Assembly (NCBI RefSeq): GCF_900129195.1
Contig: NZ_FQUY01000001.1
Location: 124,001-188,000, forward strand
Source: Desulforamulus putei DSM 12395
GTDB taxonomy: Bacteria > Bacillota > Desulfotomaculia > Desulfotomaculales > Desulfotomaculaceae
Length of the DNA: 64,000 bases
Reading direction: 5' to 3'
Shown: positions 4,541 through 21,139 of the stretch, piece after piece
How positions within the stretch are numbered: position 1 is the first letter of the stretch
How the letters are laid out: each line of letters starts with the position of its first letter
Program-made: the position numbers and the translations under genes
The notes under the pieces: model-generated
The model's database searches: none
What the model was told of the DNA's origin: nothing
The model's input: only the letters and a program-made list of their open reading frames with translations

Positions 4541-4710
4541 TATGATTAATCTACTCATCAAGATTATATCAATATTAGTAATGAATAGACATATATCGGT
4601 TCTACCGTGATTGTCGGAAGGGATAACCCAAAGGTTAATTACTTTATTCAATAAAAAAATGACCAACTGGAAATTATTTGTTGGTCAATATGATACAAAG
4701 GGGTTGGATC

Positions 4711-5468
4711 ATGCCTCTATGTGTTTATTGTGGTCAAGAAAAGCCTGCTGAACAATTTTCGCGAGAACATGTTATCCCTAGGGCCATTGGAGGTAATTTA
4801 AGACCTTATAACCCTTTTACATTAAATCAGGTATGTAAAAGGTGTAATAGCATATGTGGTACGTACATCGATGGTCCCTTTGTTAAGAACTGGTTGACCC
4901 AGAACTACAGGGCCGAAATCGCTAAAAAATACGTAAACATTAATAGTAACCCCATTCTACCACTAATCTACTTTGGACCAGTTAATGGACTTGTCTATAA
5001 AGAAAAAATATGTGAATTGTGGTTAGGGCCCACTGGTGATACAATTTATCACTTTCATGAACCTTACCCGGAAGAACCTGATGTTCCCCCAATGGTAGGA
5101 ATACCTACCTATGCCCGGACTGATCAAATCGATCATGGCTTTGCGTTTCTTTTTGTCCGCTCCAATAATCCGGTTTGGCATCCTACCATCCTGCATTCCT
5201 TTAATGAACAATTCAAACAATCTGTTATATCTACGAAACACAGGCAGCGACTATTATAATATCCTCCGAACCGGAACATTGGGAGGGTATAATTAAAGAA
5301 GAAGGATTAGTCTATGTCATATCTCCTGGCTTACAAAGATATGTAGGTCCTAAAAACATAGGAACATTTATAGCACATAAAATTGAAGGAGATTTTTCTG
5401 ACCCTGATTTGGCTGAACTGGAAAATGAAATGAGCAAAAATAATGGTTTGCCACCATTTATGATCTAA
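4711..5468 (+). pseudogene. HNH endonuclease gene broken by a frameshift
   Basis: The frame from ATG 4711 (GGGG ribosome site 8-12 bases upstream) encodes a zinc-binding HNH nuclease: CVYC near the start, EHVIPRAIGGN carrying the catalytic His, and CKRCN completing the second Cys pair. It stops at 5259. The next 210 bases, read in the frame one base back, stay open and protein-like (ISSEPEHWEG, VYVISPGLQRY, then acidic residues up to FMI and a TAA at 5468). The simplest reading is one lost base near 5215-5245 in a gene of about 252 codons. The N-terminal 182 residues with the HNH centre could still be made. Homing nucleases and McrA-like restriction enzymes share this fold. A sequencing error would look the same. 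Confidence 0.75.
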
Positions 5469-5542
5469 GGGATTGGTCTTCCACATTCTAATCTCAGCTA
5501 ATGTAAAGACCAGTGGCAGCCACACAGTGCAGAATATTCATG

Positions 5543-5573
5543 ATCTGCTAATGTATGTTTAGCAGATTTTTAT
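5543..5573 (+). terminator. Rho-independent terminator upstream of the SecB-like operon
   Basis: Perfect nine-base arms ATCTGCTAA (5543-5551) and TTAGCAGAT (5559-5567), seven-base loop, then TTTTATT. It separates the broken HNH gene from the next operon, which must therefore have its own promoter. Confidence 0.8.
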
Positions 5574-5664
5574 TGTCTACAGGCAGGAAAACTCTTCCTG
5601 GTGTAGAATTGATATTGTACTAAAAAAGTAACAAATTTTTTATTGAGTGAATAAATAAATATAT

Positions 5665-5686
5665 TACAGGCAATATTTTGCCTGTA
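5665..5686 (+). promoter_or_regulatory. 22-bp palindrome, candidate operator of the SecB-like trio
   Basis: Arms TACAGGCAA (5665-5673) and TTGCCTGTA (5678-5686) pair perfectly around four A/T bases and end 25 bases before the TTG start at 5712. A further half-site TACAGGCA lies at 5578-5585. Repeated half-sites close to a start are typical of autoregulated toxin-antitoxin operons. No T-tract follows, so a terminator is unlikely. The operator role is inference. Confidence 0.5.
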
Positions 5687-5711
5687 CGATTAATTAAAAG
5701 AGGGCGATAAT

Positions 5712-6596
5712 TTGTCCGAAATCAAAGATTTTTTCCGGCAAGAAAGTGAGTTTTTGCTTAATCTTTGCCAGCAATTTGCACCTGAATATCACGAGCAGGT
5801 GCAAAAATCGTTTATCCAGTCCCCGCTGTTGCCCAAGGGCTCCTTTAATTTATTGTTAGCTGGCAAGGGTAAACCGGATAGCTCTTTATATGAGACACTG
5901 GCCTTTGCTGCCTATGACAGTTTTGTTAAAGCCTATCTGGAGCAGTTGTGTGCTTACGTCTCAATGGTGATTCGCGAAACCGCAGTGGAAGCAAAATTGC
6001 CAGAGAGTAAAGATAAAGAAATATCCCTGGATCATGTGCTTAACTACCTGGAAGTATTGACATTGGACGATCCGGTACTGGAGTGGTTTGTGGCTACAGG
6101 TGCACCTAACCTAAACCAGGTGCGAAAGCAACTAAGTGTTTTAAACATTGAACAACTGAGTGATTTGGTGCGCCAGCTTGAGTATTATGTGCAGTATTTT
6201 ACAGATGACCCGGAGAAGTGCGAAAGCTTTAGCTTTTTAGTGGACATTCTGGAAAGATTGCCTAAGGATATGGAGGAGTTGGAACTCCTGCGGATCGACC
6301 AGGTATGGATGGAACTACTTAGGTACAAAGGTAGAGAAACTGAAGTTGTTTTTCCGTCAGTTAATCAGATAACCATTAGGCTTTCTGTAACTGTTGAAGA
6401 AAACAACCAATCATTACCTGATTTCAGGCAAGAATGTCTTCCGTCTGATAGATACGGTACAGAAAAAAGATATATGACATCATCTTACGGCAACAAATGG
6501 AATAAAGAAGTTACAATCAGAGATTTAAGCAAAGTAATACCAGGGAGTGGCAAAAATGAAGAAACAAGTAGTTGCCCACAAAGTCCAGCTGCTTGA
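5712..6596 (+). CDS. Uncharacterised 294-residue protein, first gene of the SecB-like operon
   Basis: I do not recognise a family. It starts at TTG 5712 with AGAGGG about 10 bases upstream. Residues 1-215 look mostly helical and acidic (for example LDHVLNYLEVL and VRQLEYYVQYF). Residues about 220-240 resemble a short beta region, and the tail (SSYGNKWNKEV onward) is polar and probably flexible. No signal peptide, membrane segment, metal site or helix-turn-helix is evident. It overlaps the next gene by 41 bases, and that gene overlaps the third by 4 bases, so the three are very likely translated together. By analogy with toxin-antitoxin-chaperone loci, an acidic, tail-bearing protein beside a SecB-like chaperone could be the antitoxin or chaperone client. 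That role is inference only. Confidence 0.6.
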   Translation: MSEIKDFFRQESEFLLNLCQQFAPEYHEQVQKSFIQSPLLPKGSFNLLLAGKGKPDSSLYETLAFAAYDSFVKAYLEQLCAYVSMVIRETAVEAKLPESKDKEISLDHVLNYLEVLTLDDPVLEWFVATGAPNLNQVRKQLSVLNIEQLSDLVRQLEYYVQYFTDDPEKCESFSFLVDILERLPKDMEELELLRIDQVWMELLRYKGRETEVVFPSVNQITIRLSVTVEENNQSLPDFRQECLPSDRYGTEKRYMTSSYGNKWNKEVTIRDLSKVIPGSGKNEETSSCPQSPAA

Positions 6597-6996
6597 TGTT
6601 TTTATAGAAAAAATTAATTGCCAAAGGGTAGCAGACTTCCAAAGTGGTATCCCTTACGATGTAGTTTTTAGTGTAAAGGCCAAGACTATTAATAATAATT
6701 TGGCATACGGTTACTTTAGAATAAAGATATTATTTAACAAGGAACCGAAAATTTTTAACTTGGATATTACAGTGCGTGGTGAATTCAAGTGTGAGAAAAC
6801 AACAAACCGAACAGAGCTAAAGAGATTTGTGGAACAACAGGGTTTACCTCTATTACTGCCTTGGGCTAGGCAGGCAGTAGCTTCATTAACCTTGTCTATG
6901 GGGCTGCCCCCGTTGCTTTTACCTTTAATTGATGTTTTTGCCACGATTCGTTCCAATGAACCAGTAAAAGAAGAAAGTAAGGGGTCAAAGGGATGA
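6556..6996 (+). CDS. SecB-like chaperone
   Basis: 146 residues from ATG 6556; an in-frame GTG lies three codons earlier. The C-terminal part shows the SecB signature: a run around LLPWARQAVASLT and then MGLPPLLLPLIDV, which in SecB forms the end of the client-binding groove and the long helices. The middle contains alternating strands (YFRIKILF, LDITVRGEF) as in the SecB barrel. Canonical SecB is a proteobacterial export chaperone. SecB-like proteins in other lineages are often dedicated to one antitoxin, as in mycobacterial HigBA-SecB or the phage-defence CmdTAC locus. Lying between an unknown gene and a nuclease-like gene in a defence island, it most likely serves one of them. Fold call is good; client is inferred. 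Confidence 0.78.
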   Translation: MKKQVVAHKVQLLDVFIEKINCQRVADFQSGIPYDVVFSVKAKTINNNLAYGYFRIKILFNKEPKIFNLDITVRGEFKCEKTTNRTELKRFVEQQGLPLLLPWARQAVASLTLSMGLPPLLLPLIDVFATIRSNEPVKEESKGSKG

Positions 6997-7730
6997 AGGT
7001 CAATTTTATTCATACAGATGAATATATGGACTACGTACACAGTCAGCAGGAAATTCATGATCTTGCTGACTTTTTACTTTCAGAGCCGGAGTTCTTGCCA
7101 GAGGTTGCAGCGGCTGTATTAAAAAGCTATAAATTAGGAGAGTTTGAAAAATGGCGAATGAGTTATTTAAATCTAAATAATCTTGCCAAGGCGAAGGCCA
7201 AGAGAGCCAAGCAAGAAAGGTTTGCCACCATGCTAAAAAAGGTTTTTGATCTGGCACTAACCCCACCGGAGGGAGAGAGTGAGGAGCAATTTTTGAAAAA
7301 GCTGCGTGGTGGCATACTGGAGGTATTAGTAAGCCGATTTCTGGTTGAACGGTACTGTTGTCTTAGCTCAAACTGTCTGGTTTGTGTTGATGGCCAGGTG
7401 CTGAAGGCTAAGCCGGAAGACACGGCAGGTAAAACAATGGACGTAGCAGGAGTAGACAAGCTGGCTGATACTCAAATTGGCGAATGGTACGAGTGTAAAG
7501 TCAGCAGTAGATTTACCAGTGAAAAAACAATAGCTTTTATTCAGCAGACACGGCAGCTGCTGGCAAGCAAAGGGGCCAAGGACCTTTTAGTGTCACTGGT
7601 ATCCTTTGAGAATAAAACTTTATGGAGCAGCCTTTTTAAAAAATACGGCTATGCCGAACAGAAAATGATTGGCCAGAACGAGTTGGCTTCTCTGATTAGT
7701 TATGACAAGGTTAAACGGGTGCTAATATAA
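6993..7730 (+). CDS. PD-(D/E)XK nuclease-like protein, third gene of the SecB-like operon
   Basis: 245 residues; its ATG overlaps the stop of the SecB-like gene (ATGA), indicating translational coupling. Residues 1-95 are helical and lysine-rich (LAKAKAKRAKQ), a possible DNA- or partner-binding part. From about residue 100 the order of a PD-(D/E)XK centre appears: a helix glutamate in GGILEVLV, an Asp in KTMDVAGVD, and then EWYECKVSS supplying E-x-K about 17 residues later, followed by helix IAFIQQTRQLL. These are the expected metal and catalytic positions. I infer a DNA-cleaving effector or toxin. Some PD-(D/E)XK folds in TA-like loci are inactive binding domains, so activity is not assured. 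Confidence 0.7.
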   Translation: MKVNFIHTDEYMDYVHSQQEIHDLADFLLSEPEFLPEVAAAVLKSYKLGEFEKWRMSYLNLNNLAKAKAKRAKQERFATMLKKVFDLALTPPEGESEEQFLKKLRGGILEVLVSRFLVERYCCLSSNCLVCVDGQVLKAKPEDTAGKTMDVAGVDKLADTQIGEWYECKVSSRFTSEKTIAFIQQTRQLLASKGAKDLLVSLVSFENKTLWSSLFKKYGYAEQKMIGQNELASLISYDKVKRVLI

Positions 7731-7798: not shown

Positions 7799-9149
7799 AC
7801 GTCAACCTGCCAGGGTTCTGTGGCCAATAACGAGCAGTTTCACAGGTGGCTGGTGGAGGGGGTGGATGTTCTCTACCAGCGGGCTGGCAGGCAGGTGGGG
7901 GACAAAGTCTGGCTGGTTGATTTCCACCGGCCGGATAACAATGAGTTTCTGGTGGTGAACCAGTTTACGGTCATTGAGCAGCAGCAAAATAAACGGCCAG
8001 CCCCTGGTGGTGATGGAGTTAAAAAACCCGGCGGCCGAGCAGGCCACAGTGCGTAAGGCTTATGACCAACTGCAAACCTATAAGGGGACCATTCCTTCCC
8101 TGTTTACCTACAATGCCTTTATGGTGGCATCGGACGGGCTGGAGGCCAGGGCGGGCCCCCTGTCTGCCGGCTACTCCCGCTTTATGGCCTGGAAGACCAA
8201 AGACGGTTTGCGGGAGGCCTCTCCCTTTGTCAGTCAGCTGGAAGTGCTGATTGAGGGCATGCTGAAGAAAGAAACTCTGCTTGATTTAATCCGGCACTTC
8301 ATTGTTTTTGAACAAGTGCGGCAAGAAGATCCCCAAACGGGTCTTACCATGATGGAAACGGTGAAGAAACTGGCGGCTTATCACCAGTATTACGCGGTTA
8401 ATAAGGCGGTGGCCAGCACCCAACGGGCAGCGAGTCAGACTGGTGACCGGAAAGCCGGTGTGATCTGGCATACCCAGGGCAGCGGCAAGTCTCTGTCAAT
8501 GGTTTTCTACGCCGGCAAGCTGGTGCAAAGTTTGGATAACCCCACCATTGTAGTGATAACCGACCGCAACGATTTGGATGACCAGCTTTTTGATACCTTC
8601 GCCTCCTGTACCCAGGTATTACGGCAGGCACCGGTGCAGGCGAAGGACCGGGAACACCTCAAGGAACTGTTGAAGGTGGCCTCCGGGGGCATTGTGTTTA
8701 CGACCATTCAGAAATTCCTGCCGGAGAAGGGGAAGTCTGAGTTTGACAGACTATCCGATCGCCGCAATATTGTGGTAATTGCCGACGAAGCCCACCGTAC
8801 CCAGTATGGTTTTGAGGCTAAGCTGGTGGAGGAAAGGGACGAGCAAGGCCAGGTCATTGGCCAGCGTATTTCCTATGGCTTTGCCAAGTACATGCGGGAT
8901 GCCCTGCCCAATGCCACCTATATTGGTTTTACCGGTACCCCCATCGAAGGTACGGACGTCAACACGCCGGCTGTCTTTGGTAATTATGTAGATATCTATG
9001 ATATTGCCCAAGCGGTGGATGACGGGGCTACGGTACGCATTTACTACGAGAGCCGCTTGGCTAAAGTAAATCTTAGCGAGGAAGGGCGGCAACTGCTGGA
9101 GGAATTCGACCGGGAGCAAGTAGATACGACCTCCCTTCGCCAGCCGTAG
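7799..9149 (+). pseudogene. hsdR: Type I restriction endonuclease R subunit (hsdR), truncated and frameshifted
   Basis: Clear HsdR sequence in two frames. The first (ANNEQFHRWLVEGV, then VDFHRPDNNEF and NQFTVIEQ) ends near 7985. The second resumes at INGQPLVVMELKNPA, lacking the roughly eight residues usually found between, so a small deletion caused the shift. The nuclease core (ELKNP) is followed by the motor: GVIWHTQGSGKSL as Walker A, DEAHRTQYG, and GFTGTPIEGTD. The frame stops at 9149 after about 450 residues where HsdR normally runs to about 1000. The start and roughly 60 N-terminal residues are also missing. No hsdM or hsdS lies nearby. This is a dead remnant of a type I system. Confidence 0.88.
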
Positions 9150-12161: not shown

Positions 12162-13790
12162 ATGGCCGGAGAATACCTGCTGGCAGCCGAGGCCGATAAG
12201 ATCCAGGACTTCATCTTCCGCGCGTCGCAACTGCAGGAAGTGGTGGGGGGCAGCCAGATTTTAAGGCGTTTTTGTGAAGAAGTGCCGGAGTATTTGCGTC
12301 CCAGGCCGGCAGAGGTGGTGGTGGCCGGCGGGGGCAGCTTCCGCCTGCTCTTTAGCAGCAAGGAAGAGGCAGAGCAGTACGGCGAGCGCCTGGCCGAAAT
12401 TTACCAGCGGGCCACCGGCGGGAGCCTGACGGTGGCCGATCCTGTTTCTGTCGACGGCAATTTCCCGGAGGCAGCCAGCAAGGCTGAAAAATTGTTGCGC
12501 CGGGCGAAAAACCGGCGCGGCGGCGCCTTTTCGCCGGTGCAGATGCCCTATGTGGCTTTTTGTTCCGTTTGCGGCGTGGGCCTGGCCAGGGCCTGGAGGC
12601 AAGAGGGGAAGGGCGGGGCGCGCTCGCAGTACCTCTGTGCCTCCTGTCTGAATAAAAGCAGGGAGCGAGAAGACGGCAGGGGGGAATTTTTGAGTAGCTT
12701 TTACGGCGGGGTGCTGGATGAAAAAGATCTTTCCCGCTACCGCTGGCCGAAGCAGGCTAAGGATGTGGCCTGTTTTGACCAGCGGCGCCACCTGGCCTAT
12801 CTCGTTGCCGACGTCAACAACATGGGCCGGCTCTTCAACAGGTGCGACCGGGCGGAGATGAAAGAGCTGTCGCAGAACATGGAGCGCATCTTTCATGAGA
12901 GCCTGCGGGAGCCGGTTAAACAATTGATGGAGCGCGCCGGCGATGATGGGAAAAAACTGAAAGAAAATTTTATCCCTTTTTTGCCCCTGATCCTGGGGGG
13001 AGACGACCTCTTCGCTCTCCTGCCCGCTCCCTGGGCCCTGGACTTTACCGGGAAATTTGTCAAGAATTTCAACGAGAGAATAAGAAAGTTCGTCCAGGAC
13101 GGGCTCATGATGGAAGAAGCGGCGGCTCCGACCATCAACGCGGCCGTGGTCATCTGCAAGGAAACCTACCCCTTTTCCCTGGCCCACCGCAGGGCCGAAG
13201 AGTTGCTGGGAAAAACGAAGCGCCTGGCGGTGTCCCTGCAGTACGAAGAAGGCATTAACTGTTCAGCCGTGGATTGCGAGCTGATCAGCGGCAGTTTCGC
13301 CGGGGAGGAAGTAGAAGCCGGGAAATTCCGCCCCTCCCTGCGGCCGTACCTGGTGCCCGCGGAAGGGGCGAGGGGCGTTCCGACCGGTTGGGGTGCGGAC
13401 CTGGCCGATCTGATTCAGGCCAGGTATGATCTGGCGGATTTGCCGCAAAAGAGGCGGGCGCGGTTGCGGGAAATTTTCCACCTGCCGGTTGCGGGCAGCA
13501 GGGAGGTAGAGAAAACAATCAACCGGGCGCTGCGCGAGTTTGTCGTCCGCACGCAAGAGGTAATGCCTGCAGGGTCCGGAAAGGAAAATGGGCTGGCCGC
13601 CAATTTATGCAGGGCTTTAAAATCGCTCGGCGGTGGGGCGGAAGACCGGGAAGATGAGTTCCTGCGGAAATTCGGGCGCCTGCCGAAGGAAAAGGCCGAG
13701 TTCGGACACGGCATGCCGGACCTGCTGCGGTTCTGGGATTTTACCTTTGCTCTGGATAAAAAACGCAGTGATTATGAAAGGGGGCGGTAG
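12162..13790 (+). CDS. cas10: Cas10, HD-less, with intact cyclase palm (type III-D variant)
   Basis: 542 residues. The N-terminal region is palm-like (ADKIQDFIFRASQLQEVVGGS, the usual Cas10/Cmr2 start). A zinc finger follows with Cys134, Cys137, Cys159 and Cys162. The second palm has VADVNNMG and the catalytic LILGGDDLFALL (GGDD at 279-282). The last 150 residues are helical and Cas11-like in position. There is no HD nuclease domain, so DNA cleavage by Cas10 is not expected, while cyclic oligoadenylate synthesis should be possible. It stops two bases before the next gene. The small size and missing HD agree with III-D-variant Cas10 proteins. Confidence 0.92.
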   Translation: MAGEYLLAAEADKIQDFIFRASQLQEVVGGSQILRRFCEEVPEYLRPRPAEVVVAGGGSFRLLFSSKEEAEQYGERLAEIYQRATGGSLTVADPVSVDGNFPEAASKAEKLLRRAKNRRGGAFSPVQMPYVAFCSVCGVGLARAWRQEGKGGARSQYLCASCLNKSREREDGRGEFLSSFYGGVLDEKDLSRYRWPKQAKDVACFDQRRHLAYLVADVNNMGRLFNRCDRAEMKELSQNMERIFHESLREPVKQLMERAGDDGKKLKENFIPFLPLILGGDDLFALLPAPWALDFTGKFVKNFNERIRKFVQDGLMMEEAAAPTINAAVVICKETYPFSLAHRRAEELLGKTKRLAVSLQYEEGINCSAVDCELISGSFAGEEVEAGKFRPSLRPYLVPAEGARGVPTGWGADLADLIQARYDLADLPQKRRARLREIFHLPVAGSREVEKTINRALREFVVRTQEVMPAGSGKENGLAANLCRALKSLGGGAEDREDEFLRKFGRLPKEKAEFGHGMPDLLRFWDFTFALDKKRSDYERGR

Positions 13791-13792
13791 AG

Positions 13793-16219
13793 ATGGCGGT
13801 GGAGCTGACTTTTGAGCTGCAGTTACTGAGCCACTACCATGTAGGTTCGGGATTTGCCGGGGAAATCGACTCTTTTTTACTGCGCGATGGTGACGGTGTG
13901 CCGGCAATCCGCGGCACGACCCTGGCCGGTCTTTTGCGGGACGGGCTGGAGCGGTTGCTGCAGATGCCGGCGGTGCGGCAACGGTACGGGGAGGGCGCGC
14001 GGCATCCTTTGGGCGGCGGATACTGCAGCAGCGGCGCTTCCTGCCCGGTATGCCGCCTTTTCGGCACGCCTGCCGGACCCGGGCTGTGGAAAATTTCTTC
14101 GGCGCGGCCCGGAGGTCTGGAAAGGCCGGCGATGGAAATAAAGGACCGGTTTGCTGCCGTCCACCGGGTGCGGATAAATTACGCCGCCCGCCGGTCCCAG
14201 CCGCGTTCCCTGTTTTCACTGGAGCGGGGCGACCGCCGGCTGGCCTTCGTTTTTACCGCGCAGAGCGCAGCCGGCCGCGAGGTGAACGTGGAAGACGTGG
14301 CCCTGCTGGTGGCTGCCGCCAGAAATGTGCGGCACCTGGGGAGTTCCCGCCGGCGCGGCTGGGGAGAGTGCGTGATCGGCCTGCGGGGAATACAGGGCGT
14401 GGAAGATGCTGGTTTCCCGGCAGAACCGGCAAAGGTACAGGAGCACTTTTGGGAACGAATTCTTGCTTTCTGTGCCGGGGAAATTGAGCGGGATGTGCTG
14501 TTGACGCCGGTTAACAGGGCCGTTGAGAACAAACGGTCTTTGCCGGACCCGGTCTCCCTGCTGAAAGAGGCCCTGCGGCAGCCGGAGGAACCGCAGGTGA
14601 TCAGGTTGCTGGCCCGGGCCGCGGAGCCCCTGGTGCTGGCCTGCCGGGCAGAAGCGGGAAACATGTTTGAAAGTGTGCAGGCGGTGCCGGGCAGGGCCAT
14701 TTTCGGCTCCCTGATCCGGCGGGCGGCAGAGCAGGTGGGAGACAGTTTGCTGCCGGACCTGATCAAAGAGCTCTTTTTTACCGGGGCGGTTGTCTTGTCG
14801 CCCCTCTGGCCGTGTTTGAAAAAGGATACCCTTGTTTTCCCCGGCCTGCCCGTTCCCAGGGATACGGGCATGTGCAAGTATTTCTCCGGATATAACGGCC
14901 ATGACAAAGAAGAGAGGGGGTTGTTTCTGCTTGCTTCAATAGACGGGCCGGGGGATGAGTACTGCCCCCAATGCTATGGAATCTATGAATTACGAGATAG
15001 CAAGGTTGAGACGCCGCTTGTGGCCGGCACCGGTTTTGTGGCGGTTCACGAAAAACCGCGTAAAATAGAAATCACCCTGGCACCGGAAATGCATGTGAGT
15101 ATAGACAATGGGACCGGCCGTGCCCTTCCGAGACAGCTTTTCGGCTACACCGCCCTGCCTGCCGGCACCTGTTTCTGGGGCGAGATCTGCTTCCGCAGCA
15201 GGGCGGTCTGGGAGTGCTTTGCAAAAATATTCAATCTTGGCGAGGACAGGGCCTTTTCGCTTAAAGTGGGCAAGGCGGCCGGGCGGGGTTACGGCACCCT
15301 GCGCTTACACGCCGGCAGGCTGCAGAGGGCGGAGGAGCGGGAGGGCTTTAACAGTCCCCTGCGCGAGAGGGTGAAAGAAGGAGAAGAAAGAATCAGGTTC
15401 ACCTTTATCTCCGACACCGTTTTCGTGGATCAGTGGGGGCGCTATTGCTGCGAGCCGGATCAGCGCTGGCTGGAAAAAATCCTGGGCTTTCCAGTGGAAG
15501 TGGAAGATGAAGATGTTTTTGTCTGTGCAACTGAGCGGGACGGGTTTAACCGGCTGTGGGGCCTGCCGGATCAGCGCAAGGTGATAATCCAGGCAGGGTC
15601 CACCTGGCGGCTGAAGGTGCCGGGCGGTGTGAAGAAAGAAATGCTGGACCGGATGTGCCGCCTGGAGGCGGCCGGGGTGGGTGAATACCGGTGGGAAGGA
15701 TACGGCCGGGTGGCCTTCAACCTGCTGGAGGAAAAGATCCAACTGCCTAAAACCGGCGTCTCTTTACCCGAAGAACTGCTCACAGAGCTGCTCACCGATA
15801 CGACGGATCATTTTATGCGGCGGGACAGCGCATGGAGCCGGGAAGTTAATGAACTGCTGGATAAAAGATTGGACGAGGTTGTAAAGGAATGGCCGGGGGG
15901 AGAGAGAAAGCAGCTGGCCCTGCTGGCCCGCTGGCTGTACCGGCAGCGCCATTGCCCTGTGGAAGAACTGGAAGAAAAGCTTTCCTCTATGGGCTGGCCG
16001 TCTGAAAATATCATTAAGTATTTGAAAGATTATTGCGATCCCGGGCGGGAGAACAAGATCTGGCCCCCTGGCAAGGGACAAGACCGGCTGAAGCGGCTTC
16101 AGGAACTGCTAGAGGAACTGGCCGGAAAATCCAGAAACAGCTGTGAGTTTACCAGGGCAGTGGAAGCGCTGGCCGGCAGGCTGGCCGGCATAGGTGCCGA
16201 TGTAAAGGAGGAGGTATAA
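13793..16219 (+). CDS. Cas7-Cas5(Csx10)-helical fusion subunit of a III-D-variant complex
   Basis: 808 residues in three parts. Residues 1-235 are a Cas7/Csm3-like RAMP: HVGSG, then EIDSFLLRD with Asp26 aligned to the Csm3 catalytic aspartate, RGTTLAGLLRD, a CPVCRLFG zinc motif, and RRRGWGE. Residues about 270-650 match Csx10 (Cas5-like): RQLFGYTALPAG, AAGRGYGTL, then FNRLWGLPDQ and WEGYGRVAF. Residues about 660-808 are helical and charged, fitting a Cas11-like small subunit. This order equals the Cas7-Cas5-Cas11 fusion of the cyanobacterial III-D variant (III-Dv). Presumed role: crRNA 5'-handle binding plus one target-RNA cleavage site. The Cas11 label is by position only. Confidence 0.85.
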   Translation: MAVELTFELQLLSHYHVGSGFAGEIDSFLLRDGDGVPAIRGTTLAGLLRDGLERLLQMPAVRQRYGEGARHPLGGGYCSSGASCPVCRLFGTPAGPGLWKISSARPGGLERPAMEIKDRFAAVHRVRINYAARRSQPRSLFSLERGDRRLAFVFTAQSAAGREVNVEDVALLVAAARNVRHLGSSRRRGWGECVIGLRGIQGVEDAGFPAEPAKVQEHFWERILAFCAGEIERDVLLTPVNRAVENKRSLPDPVSLLKEALRQPEEPQVIRLLARAAEPLVLACRAEAGNMFESVQAVPGRAIFGSLIRRAAEQVGDSLLPDLIKELFFTGAVVLSPLWPCLKKDTLVFPGLPVPRDTGMCKYFSGYNGHDKEERGLFLLASIDGPGDEYCPQCYGIYELRDSKVETPLVAGTGFVAVHEKPRKIEITLAPEMHVSIDNGTGRALPRQLFGYTALPAGTCFWGEICFRSRAVWECFAKIFNLGEDRAFSLKVGKAAGRGYGTLRLHAGRLQRAEEREGFNSPLRERVKEGEERIRFTFISDTVFVDQWGRYCCEPDQRWLEKILGFPVEVEDEDVFVCATERDGFNRLWGLPDQRKVIIQAGSTWRLKVPGGVKKEMLDRMCRLEAAGVGEYRWEGYGRVAFNLLEEKIQLPKTGVSLPEELLTELLTDTTDHFMRRDSAWSREVNELLDKRLDEVVKEWPGGERKQLALLARWLYRQRHCPVEELEEKLSSMGWPSENIIKYLKDYCDPGRENKIWPPGKGQDRLKRLQELLEELAGKSRNSCEFTRAVEALAGRLAGIGADVKEEV

Positions 16220-16222
16220 ACG

Positions 16223-18022
16223 GTGGAGGCTTATAAAGTGATTACTGCCGAACTGGTTATATCCTGCGCCCTGCACCTGGGCAGCGGCGAGGCCGGCGAA
16301 GTGGCGGATGCCCTGTTGATCCGCGACGAGCGGGGAGCGGTCTACCTGCCGGGAACCGCCTTGGCCGGTGCCCTGCGGGAGAAAATGACCAGGCTGGCCC
16401 CCGGGCTGGGATGGGAGGCCTGCCGGACTTTGGCGGGCGGCCGCGGCATCTGCGGCTGTCCTGTCTGCCGGCTGATGGGGGAAATCAATTCCGCTGAAGA
16501 GGAGGAAGCCGGAAGTCCTATGGATCGGGCAGGCGGCCGGGGGCCGTCAGCCTCCCGGCTCTACGTTTATAATGCCTTTTTGAAAGAGGAGAGCCTGCCA
16601 GCCGCCATCCGCGACGGGGTGGGCATTGACCGGGTCACCGGCACGGCGGCCAGGGCGGCACGGGCTAAGTTTAACCTGGAGGTGCTGCCGCCGGGGGCGG
16701 TCTTTTCCCTGCGTCTGGAGCTGCGCGGTGTGGACGAAGCAGGCGAGCTTCTGCTGGCGGCGGCCCTGGCCGAATGGCAGGAAGGGCGCGGCCGGCTGGG
16801 CGGGCGGGTGACCAGCGGCTTGGGTGTTTTTCGACTGCGCTCTTTGGAAATGCGGGAGCTGGATCTGGGCAGGGTGGAGGACGTGAGGAAATACCTGGCA
16901 TCAGACCGCCCCTGGGAGGTGGCCGGAGTGCGTAAAGGCTGGCTGGACGTTAGCCTGGAGAGTGCCCGCCGGAAGGTGAGTTCTGCCGGCGGCGCCGGCA
17001 GGGATGGCGGTTTGCGCCTGTGGTGCTCTTTTGCGGGCCGGCTGCAGTTCACAGAAGGCATGGTGGTGAGCGACCCCCAGGCCGTGCTTTATGGTTTTGA
17101 CCATGTTCCCCTGACCATTGCCTGGGACCAGTGGGACCTGCCGGTGCTGCCCGGTTCGGCGCTGAAAGGGGTGATCCGGGTACGGGCGGAAAAGATCCTG
17201 CGCACCATCTGGAGCATTAAAGCACAGCAGAAAAACCCCGGCAACCGCCAGAAGCAGGCGGAATATTTTAAAGCCTTTTGCCCGGCCTGCGACCCGCTGC
17301 AGAGATTGCCGGAGAAGCCGCTGGCCGCCTGTGATGCTCTGTTGACAGAAGCCGGGTTCTCCGGGCTGGATATAGCGGAGGAAGAGGACCTCTGCCTGGC
17401 CTGCCGCCTCTTCGGCAGCACCCGCCGGGGCGGCCGGCTGTTTGTTTCCGACGCCCTTTTTAGCCAGACAGACTCCCGGCCGGAGGCCGTATTGAAGCTT
17501 TTTGACTTCCTGGCGGTGGACCGTTTTACCGGCGGGGGCGCCGGGAAATTGAAATACGATGCCGTGGTCCTCTGCCGGCCCCAGTTTGAGCTGCACCTCT
17601 ATATTGAAAACCCCCGGCCCTGGGAACTGGGCCTTTTGGCCCTGGTCCTGCGCGATTTCGCCTGCGAGAGTGTCCGGGTCGGCTATGGCGGAGGGAAGGG
17701 CTTTGGTCTGGCCAGGTTGACCGGCGGCGAACTGACCGTGGGCTATCTCCAGGAAAAGGATCTGGGTACTATAAATTTATCTTCGGCGCAACAGCCCACG
17801 GCCCGGAAGACCTGCAGGGGCATTTTCAACTGCTTTACCCTGCACGTGCCCGAAAGCCTGCCTCTTTTCCTGCCGGCGGTTAATGGCTGGATAGAAGACC
17901 TGTACCGGCAAGAGGTATCCAGGCAGGACAGGGAAGAAAAGCGGCTGCCGCCTTTGCTGAAAGATTACTATTTTGACCGGGAAGAACTTTGGAAACTCTA
18001 TCCACTGGAGGTGCAGTTATGA
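16223..18022 (+). CDS. Double Cas7 (Cas7-2x) RAMP subunit
   Basis: 599 residues from GTG 16223, just after AAGGAGG. Domain one (1-220) has HLGSG, VADALLIRD with an aspartate in the Csm3 catalytic position, PGTALAGALRE, a CGCPVCRLMG zinc motif and RLGGRVTSGLG. Domain two (270-510) has LPGSALKGVIR, paired zinc motifs CPAC and CLACRLFGS, VDRFTGGGAGKLKYD and GGGKGFGLARL. Two complete RAMP folds in one chain match the Cas7-2x subunit of III-D-variant complexes, contributing two backbone segments along the crRNA. Domain one looks catalytic; domain two lacks the same aspartate spacing, so I would not assume it cuts. Its TGA overlaps the csx19 ATG. Confidence 0.87.
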   Translation: MEAYKVITAELVISCALHLGSGEAGEVADALLIRDERGAVYLPGTALAGALREKMTRLAPGLGWEACRTLAGGRGICGCPVCRLMGEINSAEEEEAGSPMDRAGGRGPSASRLYVYNAFLKEESLPAAIRDGVGIDRVTGTAARAARAKFNLEVLPPGAVFSLRLELRGVDEAGELLLAAALAEWQEGRGRLGGRVTSGLGVFRLRSLEMRELDLGRVEDVRKYLASDRPWEVAGVRKGWLDVSLESARRKVSSAGGAGRDGGLRLWCSFAGRLQFTEGMVVSDPQAVLYGFDHVPLTIAWDQWDLPVLPGSALKGVIRVRAEKILRTIWSIKAQQKNPGNRQKQAEYFKAFCPACDPLQRLPEKPLAACDALLTEAGFSGLDIAEEEDLCLACRLFGSTRRGGRLFVSDALFSQTDSRPEAVLKLFDFLAVDRFTGGGAGKLKYDAVVLCRPQFELHLYIENPRPWELGLLALVLRDFACESVRVGYGGGKGFGLARLTGGELTVGYLQEKDLGTINLSSAQQPTARKTCRGIFNCFTLHVPESLPLFLPAVNGWIEDLYRQEVSRQDREEKRLPPLLKDYYFDREELWKLYPLEVQL

Positions 18023-18627
18023 GGCAAGGGAGAGTGGATTTCCGGGAGCTGGCCGGAGGTGTGATGCGTGAAGGAGCGGAGGTGGGTGAGGAACAGTTGA
18101 CCGTGTGCGGAAGTGAAATATCGATGGAAGGCTGGCGGGCCGCCTGGCCGGATCTGCGCAGGGTGATGGGGTTTAAATATGCCGTTCTGGCCTGCCTGGA
18201 AGAGATAAAGTTTTTAAAGGCTGGGTCTGTTGACCGGTGGCCGGACGACCTGCTGTGGGCGCGCGTATTCGGGCCGGGAGGTGATTTTTACTGCTGGAGA
18301 GACGGCCCGGGCCGGCTCAGGTGGCGGGTGATCGGCCCGCCGGGGCTTGAGCTGCCCGGGAACCTGGGACCGGGGAAAAGTTTGTGGGAGGAGGAGAAGA
18401 AGGCAAAATTTTTCGTAAATGAAGAAGCATTTCTTCTCTGGGGACAGTATGATGGGAAAGCGGAAGCGTGGCAGGAAAGGCGTGTGGCGGCGGCCGACCT
18501 GAAGTATCCGGTTGACTTTAAAGGGCGGGTGAAACTGCTCTGCCGCGTCTACAGCCGCAGGGGCCGTGTTGAACTGGTATGGTACTGCGATCTGGTTGAG
18601 GAGGGAGAGAAAAATGCCGCGGGGTAA
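18019..18627 (+). CDS. csx19: Csx19 family protein (TIGR03984-like)
   Basis: 202 residues from ATG 18019, which overlaps the previous stop as ATGA. The pattern FGPGGDFYCWRDGPGRLRWRVIGP, spread over residues 72-97, and the later AFLLWGQYDG resemble the Csx19 family, found only in III-D loci. No catalytic motif is visible. Csx19 is a structural or regulatory subunit of III-D-variant complexes. Its place between the double Cas7 and the Cas7-insertion genes matches the cyanobacterial gene order. Family call is by pattern, without a profile search. Confidence 0.75.
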   Translation: MRQGRVDFRELAGGVMREGAEVGEEQLTVCGSEISMEGWRAAWPDLRRVMGFKYAVLACLEEIKFLKAGSVDRWPDDLLWARVFGPGGDFYCWRDGPGRLRWRVIGPPGLELPGNLGPGKSLWEEEKKAKFFVNEEAFLLWGQYDGKAEAWQERRVAAADLKYPVDFKGRVKLLCRVYSRRGRVELVWYCDLVEEGEKNAAG

Positions 18628-21139
18628 GATTATCAATTATAGTCCGGGAAAGAACAGGGGCAGGCTTAAGGATAACCTAACCGGCGCAATGCTGGATTTT
18701 AAACTAATTAACGTGGACAGATCCTCCCGCGCCTTTCTTTCCGCGGGGAGGGAAGTGGAATATGATTTGAGCCCGGATGGCCGGGTGTGCCGGGTCAGGG
18801 TGGTTGATCCGTATGTAAAGAAAGAGCAGCCGGAAAGCGCCGGGGCTACAGACAGAGGCGGCAGAGAAAAAGGCAAACCGGAAATTGCGCTGCCAGAAGC
18901 CGGGCCGGTTTTTTCTGTTTGCGGAGGGGAAATGGAAGGAATGCTGTCCGAAGAGAAAGCAATGGAATACCTGAAGCGGGCCGGCCTGGGAGATATACTG
19001 GCCGGGCAGGCGCAGAGTGCCGGGACACAGGATGGAAACCAGTTTTTAAACCCCTACAATTTTGTCCGCTACCTGGACCAGCCGGCGGAAGCCGCAGGCG
19101 GGCCGCATCTGTTCTGGCGCTGCCAGCCGCCGCCGCACGACCGCTTTACCGGGCTGTCCGGCCGGATTACCTGCCGCCTGGTCAATATAACGCCGCTTTT
19201 TATTTCTGATTCCCACGGTATCGAGGAAGACGGGCAAAATGACGGCCACAAAAAATACCGCTTTTTCCAGATCGACGGCCGCAAACTCATTCCCGGCAGC
19301 AGCCTGCGGGGGATGGTGCGCTCGGTTTACGAAGCTGCCACCAACTCCTGTTTTGCAGTCTTCGATGACAGGAGGCTTTCCTACCGGAATAACCGGTACT
19401 CTGCCTGGCTGGTGCCGGCCAGGATCGAGGGAAGCCGGGAAGAAGGTTTTAAGCTGAAACTTTTGCCCGGGCGGGAAAACATGATAATTTATCCTGACCC
19501 CAGGCGGTATTTAAATGAAAATTATCCCAAAAGCAAAACTCAGTATGCCGGCTGGCTGTATTCGTTCTGGCCTCTTGAGCCAAGCAAGACTCTAAAGCAA
19601 AAGAACGACGAATTCGTGCACAGCCGGAGGGGAAAAACACCGCCTGCACTGCCGGAAGACACCGGCCACGGCAGTGAATGCTGGGCTATTTTAAAAAAGA
19701 GAAGACACAGCCACCCCAATATAACTTTTTACGACGTGGTGGAGATTGAAGCTCCGGATAATGAGCAGGCCATTAAAGAGAAATATAATGAGCTTAAGAT
19801 GGGAAAAGGCGATTTTATATTAACGAAAGGTTATCTATGCAAAAACAACCAAAACATCGAGTCCAAGCATAGCGAGCGCTTTTTTTTCGATAATTCCGGG
19901 CAAAATTCCGGGCAAGAAATAAATCTGCCGTTAGAAAAAGTAAAAGAATTCGAAAAGTTGATTGCCGAATATGCAGACAGGCACTGCGAGCGGATTAAAA
20001 AGCTGCAGGACCCGCAAAAGCCGCTTGAATCAAAAAAAGAAGGCGAAGGTAAACACGCAGCGTACAGCCGGTTTATCGTGAAGGGGTGTTCGAAAGGATA
20101 TAAGGTTCAAGACGGCGAGCTGGTCTACGCTCTGCTTGCCGGATCTGCCGACAGTCCGGATGTGGTTTTCCTGGCACCGGTGCTGGTGCCCCGCGTTTTT
20201 CACGAAAAAAGTATGCGCGAACTGCTGCCCAAATACTTGCACAAGTGCAAGAAAATAGAAGTACTCTGCCCCGCCTGCCGTCTTTTCGGCTGGGTTGGCG
20301 GTAATGATAAAGACCGTCCAAATGAAGGCCACCCGGCGGACAGCGCTGTTGCTTTTGCCGGCAGACTGAGCTTCAGCAGCGGCAAGATGATTTACGACAG
20401 CGGTGAAGAGGGGGAGATAACCCTGGCCATCCTTTCTTCCCCTAAACCCACCGCCACTTCCTTTTACCTGTTGAACAGGCAGAGCAAAAAGCCTTCCGGG
20501 GATTTAAAATATGCTGAAGAGGCCGTTTTAAGGGGGCGGAAGTTTTACCTACACCACGGGGCCGGCCCTTCCAGGCACCCAGACGGTTACGAATATGAGC
20601 GCCCTGAAGGGAAGAAGGATAATCAGAACCGTACCGTGCGCAATGCCGTAAAACCAGGCGCCGTTTTTGAATTTACCGTGGATTTTGAGAGCCTGGCCCC
20701 TGCGGAGCTGGGTGCCCTGTTGTGGTCTCTCCAGCTGGAAGAAGGCATGTATCACCGCCTCGGCTATGCCAGACCGCTGGGCTTTGGGTCGGTAAAGGTA
20801 ATTGTTGAAAAAGTCGAGGTTTTTGACCTGAAAAAGAAGTACCTTTCGTTAACTGCTTACGAGCAGTATGCGCTGGCTTTGGACCGGAAGCAGATCAACG
20901 AAAAGATTGACCGCTTCAAGTCTGAAATGAAAGATTTATACGGCAGAGAATTTGGAGAGCTGGAAAACATCAAAGATCTGCAGAAAATTTTAAGCACGCC
21001 TCCCCTGCCTAATATCCATTACCCGCGGCTGGAAAGAATTCCTGATCCAAAAGGGGAGAACTTCAGGTGGTTTATAAATAAAGGTAAACAGAAACAGCCC
21101 TTGCCGTTGGCCGGGGAAGACAGGGGATTGTGTTACTGA
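18614..21139 (+). CDS. Cas7 with large insertion (TIGR03986-like RAMP), OB-like N-terminus
   Basis: 841 residues from ATG 18614, overlapping csx19 by 14 bases with GAGGGAGAG just upstream. Residues 1-65 ([17 protein letters not shown], then [17 protein letters not shown]) look like a cold-shock/OB-type domain. NPYNFVRYL marks the TIGR03986 start, followed by the RAMP with [11 protein letters not shown] and [14 protein letters not shown] long lysine-rich insertion (about 330-510) precedes [11 protein letters not shown] and [12 protein letters not shown]. In III-D variants this protein caps the Cas7 backbone. An IS21 remnant begins within the last codons, so the final few residues ([10 protein letters not shown]) may be partly junction-derived. 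The body looks intact. Confidence 0.82.

Follow-up and report, generated by a model that had tools for sequence, protein, structure and literature searches.

A SecB-linked putative nuclease operon that may work like a toxin-antitoxin-chaperone module, with a sigma-H-type promoter and an upstream inverted repeat absent from its relatives

Positions 5712-7730 of the window (the whole 64 kb stretch of DNA analysed here) hold three genes, all open and overlapping, that we consider reasonably likely to form one operon working like a toxin-antitoxin-chaperone (TAC) module. This reading is drawn from sequence comparisons. Transcription of the operon appears to start from a sigma-H-type promoter at 5583-5609, and the palindrome further downstream, which is specific to this lineage, most likely serves as a hairpin in the leader or as a local operator rather than as a conserved site of autoregulation. 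The features concerned are as follows.

5542-5575, + strand: terminator-like stem-loop with a T-run, behind the upstream HNH gene, which it separates from the operon
5578-5609, + strand: TACAG and sigma-H-type promoter, with -35 box GCAGGAAAA at 5583-5591, N11 and -10 box GTAGAAT at 5603-5609; includes the first TACAGGCA
5665-5686, no strand assigned: inverted repeat TACAGGCAA-TATT-TTGCCTGTA, unique in the genome and absent from 15 related operons
5696-5704, + strand: ribosome-binding site AAAAGAGGG, 7 nt ahead of the TTG start, read from the sequence
5712-6596, + strand: gene 1, presumed antitoxin of 294 aa; helical as far as residue 202, then an unstructured tail ending in SPAA (low-confidence model)
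6547-6996, + strand: gene 2, SecB-like chaperone, starting at GTG 6547 or ATG 6556; overlaps gene 1
6993-7730, + strand: gene 3, 245 aa, presumed nuclease toxin, with E110, D150 and E167-x-K169; ATGA overlap with gene 2

Gene 2 matches the Pfam SecB family (30.2 bits for a cut-off of 26, E 4.8e-7) and, at 1.2e-9, the PADLOC model PD-T4-9_C of the CmdC chaperone, which belongs to CmdTAC (PD-T4-9), an antiphage TAC of E. coli. Against Rv1957 (chain 5mtw), from the HigBA-SecB TAC of Mycobacterium tuberculosis (Rv1955-1957), the gene 2 profile gave a weak match that is not significant (E 0.18). A profile search found SecB-like loci in 10 of the 113 genomes available for the class, and in 31 of the 398 genomes of a phylum sample. 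The operon architecture recurs in several families, with the genes kept together in related operons. A different arrangement, with a SecB-like gene after a short ORF and no nuclease, occurs at L042, L043, L045, L047, L030, L046, L031 and L032, and likewise at L055, L056 and L063-L066. Most of these short ORFs end in -AA or -VA, and by their sequences the loci look like ordinary TAC loci with other toxins.

Gene 1 fell into no family above cut-off in the libraries searched, Pfam included, and no PADLOC model matched it at E <= 1. Its predicted model is of low confidence as a whole (mean pLDDT 37), with residues 203-294 lacking predicted structure. All six proteins of the close group, gene 1 and its five homologues, end in PAA or AAA, and their tails vary in length and sequence. 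For a wider count we examined 39 SecB-like loci, 36 of them with an upstream ORF; L036 and L062 (no usable upstream ORF) and L040 (a fusion) were left out, and removal of seven near-copies left 29 distinct ORFs. Of these, 14 end in AA, against 11 of 193 control long ORFs (Fisher 3e-8), and 21 end in A, against 22 of 193 (Fisher 1e-11), in a control that still contained operon members. The -A tail is missing from some loci (L052, L037, L128 and the L040 fusion), and L045, which is near-identical to L042 and was collapsed with it, ends in EAT. The -AA end of gene 1 resembles that of the organism's own tmRNA tag, ANEEYALAA, and the genome carries clpX with a clpP-like ORF (clpP by eye) directly 5' of it. 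At that locus (L148, in the own genome) trigger factor-like and clpP-like ORFs both lie 5' of clpX, names other than clpX being given by eye.

Joining the gene 1 families of the close and distant groups by profile comparison failed: no homology was detectable between them (probability 0.3%). Two loci show other contents in the first position. In L040, gene 1-like and SecB-like sequences are fused in a 404-aa ORF followed by the nuclease, and the first part has no -AA tail. In L049 (860-1465; L050 is near-identical), the antitoxin slot holds a CRISPR type III-like domain of the RAMP superfamily (Pfam 7.9e-6, above cut-off; PADLOC Csm3 7.5e-8), in a protein ending in SYAA.

E110, D150, E167 and K169 of gene 3 are kept throughout the close group, and a protein family encoded downstream of the distant SecB-like genes has invariant D, E and K in its 10 aligned, divergent members. 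The nuclease profile built from these 10 loci matches the close group with 99% probability. Over 398 genomes, of which 15 matched, it detected the window gene at 8.4e-15, though this gene lay outside the profile. The conserved E, D and ExK come in helix-strands-helix order, the arrangement of the PD-(D/E)XK superfamily (a helix E, then D, then ExK, the D and the E and K of ExK being the residues invariant in all 10), and by sequence gene 3 belongs to this D...ExK (PD-(D/E)XK-type) family, of restriction-nuclease type. It matches nothing above cut-off in Pfam, NCBIfam, PADLOC or the PDB. Its predicted model has a mean pLDDT of 58, with a low-confidence catalytic region and a secondary structure that fits helix-strands-helix; the best Foldseek match, and none scored lower, was the restriction-type nickase N.BspD6I at a non-significant E of 0.09.

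Five loci were newly found with the nuclease profile. L125 is a full three-gene operon whose first gene ends in LLAVA. The SecB-like part is interrupted in L128; L130 has a first gene ending in TVAA and a nuclease, with no SecB ORF recognised; L129 keeps the first gene and scraps only; and L126 lies at a contig end. Three of the five thus show an interruption or have no intact SecB ORF, which would suit an operon that is a loosely kept remnant with chance repeats in front of it, as would the ordinary count of TACAGGCA in the window. We regard this as very improbable, however, given the three open, overlapping genes of the window and the recurrence of the architecture across families.

The setting of the operon fits a defence role, because defence genes adjoin it here as well as in L019 and L023. 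Defence models matched a PLD-SNF2 helicase, a shortened type I restriction gene and a CARF-HEPN protein in the window, where genes at 12162-21139 also resemble CRISPR type III (by eye); L019 has a type II/III methyltransferase-like gene near the operon, and L023 Druantia-like and AriA/PtuA-like genes. Of an HsdR-like type I restriction protein encoded at 7974-9149 of the window, little more than the N-terminal half, roughly, remains. At the limits used, searches for relatives returned none of gene 1 in viral contigs, plasmids or phages, none of gene 2 in viral contigs, none of gene 3 in viral contigs or plasmids, and none of the L049 nuclease in plasmids or phages; a scan of genome contigs gave only three loci, all already found.

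Such surroundings, with restriction genes in the defence island, together with the nuclease type of gene 3, could also point to a nuclease of restriction-like type that has its own folding chaperone, gene 1 being a substrate-binding or targeting subunit instead of an antitoxin. The RAMP match of the L049 first gene is what a nucleic-acid-binding subunit might give. Yet restriction systems need neither -AA tails nor a SecB partner, and the operon itself contains no methyltransferase, so we think this interpretation unlikely. The TAC reading has points against it too: the order of the genes is antitoxin-chaperone-toxin, the close and distant gene 1 groups show no detectable homology, the models of genes 1 and 3 are weak, some loci have no -A tail, and the distant operons have no sigma-H-type site at up to 1 mismatch. 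As for the first of these, the toxin-antitoxin-chaperone order, not found here, is usual in TAC loci but not obligatory.

What would drive such a module? What adjoins the first TACAGGCA is the -35 box of a promoter of the sigma-H (Spo0H) type. Promoters of this type have a spacer of N11-12. Both boxes and the 11-nt spacer are alike in the window, and we infer from this likeness that the promoter is used: the boxes quoted in the available portion of PMC8510167 are RNAGGAWWW (-35) and RNNGAATWW (-10), and the window site has 0 mismatches to RNAGGAWWW-N11-RNNGAAT (through GAAT). No ordinary sigma-70 promoter was seen on the + strand in 5440-5760. A sigma-H gene scoring above the cut-off of its family is also present in the genome. 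When the motif was loosened to allow any gap from 10 to 22, it matched the organism's genome 20 times, 12 of them on gaps 14 and 15. Across the order, 111 of the 113 genomes carry the strict form GCAGGAN{14,15}GTMGAAT, against 8 matches in total for the reversed control. Most of the order-wide examples fetched lie outside long ORFs, often 50 to 110 bases 5' of a start codon, where a promoter would be expected. One match in the organism's own genome (L077, gap 15) lies 154 bases 5' of a trigger-factor-like gene, named by eye.

Among the six close loci, five (the window, L019, L021, L022 and L023, of which L022 and L023 are near-identical) have, no more than 300 bases from gene 1, a site that departs from the motif at 0 or 1 position, and the sixth, L020, has one with 2 mismatches. 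In L019 the near-match stands at the same distance as the site in the window. None of the 10 distant operons has a site at up to 1 mismatch. The reversed motif matched in 2 of 16 upstream regions. Among 96 regions lying 5' of long ORFs, operon genes included, 10 have a sigma-H-type site.

Put together, the TAC reading would run as follows. Gene 1 would be a labile antitoxin with a helical body and a variable tail, the latter being the chaperone-binding part, and its C-terminal -AA could be gripped by ClpXP. The SecB-like product of gene 2 would cover this tail, and the D...ExK nuclease of gene 3 would be kept inactive by gene 1. Loss of the chaperone to a competitor, for which a structural protein of a phage is the likeliest candidate, as in CmdTAC, would lead to degradation of gene 1, and the nuclease would cut nucleic acid. 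The operon would be transcribed from the sigma-H-type promoter, with the palindrome downstream of it. Toxicity, neutralisation, proteolysis, trigger, function and partner are all what we infer, and the module is probably antiphage.

A close known parallel is CmdTAC, which shares the SecB-like chaperone and the defence setting. In the accessible text of PMC11618068, the CmdTAC antitoxin has helices, an unstructured C-terminus and an -AA end, features that gene 1 would share, the first two going by a low-confidence model; like other TAC antitoxins it ends in LAA, a ClpXP recognition sequence, and a capsid protein draws the chaperone away. The toxins differ, CmdT being an mRNA ADP-ribosyltransferase and gene 3 a D...ExK protein with no ADP-ribosyltransferase match; the window gene order is also unlike that of CmdTAC, and PADLOC holds no model that either gene 1 or gene 3 matches at E <= 1. 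HigBA-SecB and its relatives have, according to the part of PMC5105189 available, a chaperone-addicted antitoxin with a C-terminal extension; their toxin is a ribonuclease (PMC9098466, likewise in part), in contrast to the nuclease candidate here. In the portions available of the papers cited, TAC toxins target translation or mRNA, as endoribonucleases or as an mRNA ADP-ribosyltransferase. The paper titles and abstracts searched named no SecB-linked nuclease toxin system, which is a statement about those searches and not about all that is in print, and the combination of a TAC with a nuclease toxin is unnamed in the protein-family libraries searched.

We tentatively propose, as an idea less probable than the TAC reading of the operon itself, a widespread and unnamed type of TAC defence in Bacillota-type genomes. 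Here a D...ExK nuclease would be guarded by a SecB-like chaperone together with an antitoxin whose tail is a degron, the genes running antitoxin-chaperone-nuclease. In the order of this genome the system would be driven by sigma-H and loaded at stationary phase or sporulation, and capture of the chaperone by phage proteins would free the nuclease. A nuclease guarded in this way would extend the TAC sensing half to a restriction-type effector, and would equip Clostridia-type bacteria with a CmdTAC-like means of sensing phages; the promoter, if truly of sigma-H type, would tie the module to the sporulation switch.

The upstream repeats tell a separate story from the proteins. The preliminary description had read three TACAGGCA half-sites as a basis for cooperative autoregulation, and hence for a toxin-antitoxin-like logic. 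The words are indeed there, at 5578-5585 (+), 5665-5672 (+) and 5679-5686 (-), and the whole 64 kb holds only these three. With 1.65 expected and at least three reached in 24 of 100 shuffles, their number is ordinary, and only the clustering is notable. The last two form the palindrome, which does end 25 bases ahead of the start codon (TTG at 5712) and which had been called a perfect 22-bp palindrome. It is not one, since 20 of 22 positions equal those of its own reverse complement, leaving perfect 9-bp arms around a 4-base loop. Few dinucleotide shuffles of 5470-5711 contain any repeat with arms of at least 9 and a loop of 3-8 (62 of 5000), and fewer still a repeat whose arm includes 4 or more G/C (5 of 5000), so the palindrome is probably more than noise, in a test set up post hoc, after the repeat had been seen. 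As a dispersed repeat it was rejected: the genome holds a single exact copy, and at up to 3 mismatches there are 17 forward matches for 12 of the reversed control.

The 5578 copy is not a free-standing half-site, because its TACAG runs into the promoter-like -35 box and it sits inside a second, imperfect stem-loop at 5576-5607. TACAG precedes GCAGGA in none of the 11 other own-genome motif matches with gap 14 or 15, and therefore does not belong to the promoter motif in general. L019, whose operon is the closest homologue (gene 1 42% identical across residues 1-194), has TACAGGCAGGAAA identical at -134, as in the window, and not the palindrome. Among the 15 related upstream regions, compared from assumed start codons, only L019 carries TACAGGCA, and none has an inverted repeat with arms of at least 9 or the TGCCTGTA arm, so the palindrome fails the conservation check that the preliminary description had set for it. 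A single operator system of three half-sites is thus disfavoured, since the first site is kept without the palindrome. A repeated word 5' of an operon can consist of a promoter box and an unrelated hairpin.

Could the palindrome nonetheless be the operator of a TA-style autorepressor, gene 1 acting alone or with partners? The 5578 copy would then be a further site that covers the -35, and the palindrome would have diverged in relatives, as TA operators often do. The repeat being unlikely by chance, the TACAGGCAGGAAA string shared with L019 and the absence of TACAG from the general motif speak for it. However, the palindrome is missing from L019 and the 14 other regions, and family searches recognised no DNA-binding domain in gene 1, whose model is too poor to exclude one. 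HigA, by comparison, has a recognised DNA-binding antitoxin fold. This makes the operator rather doubtful, and the cooperative autoregulation through three half-sites first suggested is not supported. The toxin-antitoxin-like logic draws its support from the proteins instead, that is from the -AA-tailed gene 1, the SecB-like chaperone and the nuclease, which are kept together, and not from the repeats.

An action at the RNA level is a possibility we take more seriously, while still short of probable. The palindrome is flanked by the promoter-like site on one side and the ribosome-binding site on the other, and in the transcript it would span roughly +50 to +71. Folding of the leader is better than that of its shuffles (z -2.5), and on the - strand the palindrome is terminator-like. 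A 9-bp leader hairpin might thus tune the stability or translation of the operon mRNA, or stop antisense transcription on the other strand. In Staphylococcus aureus, translation of sigH is controlled by an inverted repeat in the 5' UTR (PMC3486894, available in part). Unlike that case, the hairpin here leaves the ribosome-binding site uncovered; there is, moreover, no visible - strand gene for it to terminate, and the palindrome is not conserved. The sole hit of an Rfam scan was a sub-threshold snoRNA at 5426-5494, which we judged to be chance. Further upstream, the HNH endonuclease gene (4678-5468 of the window) has an apparent frameshift near 5259, by eye, its remainder running in another frame to about 5468.
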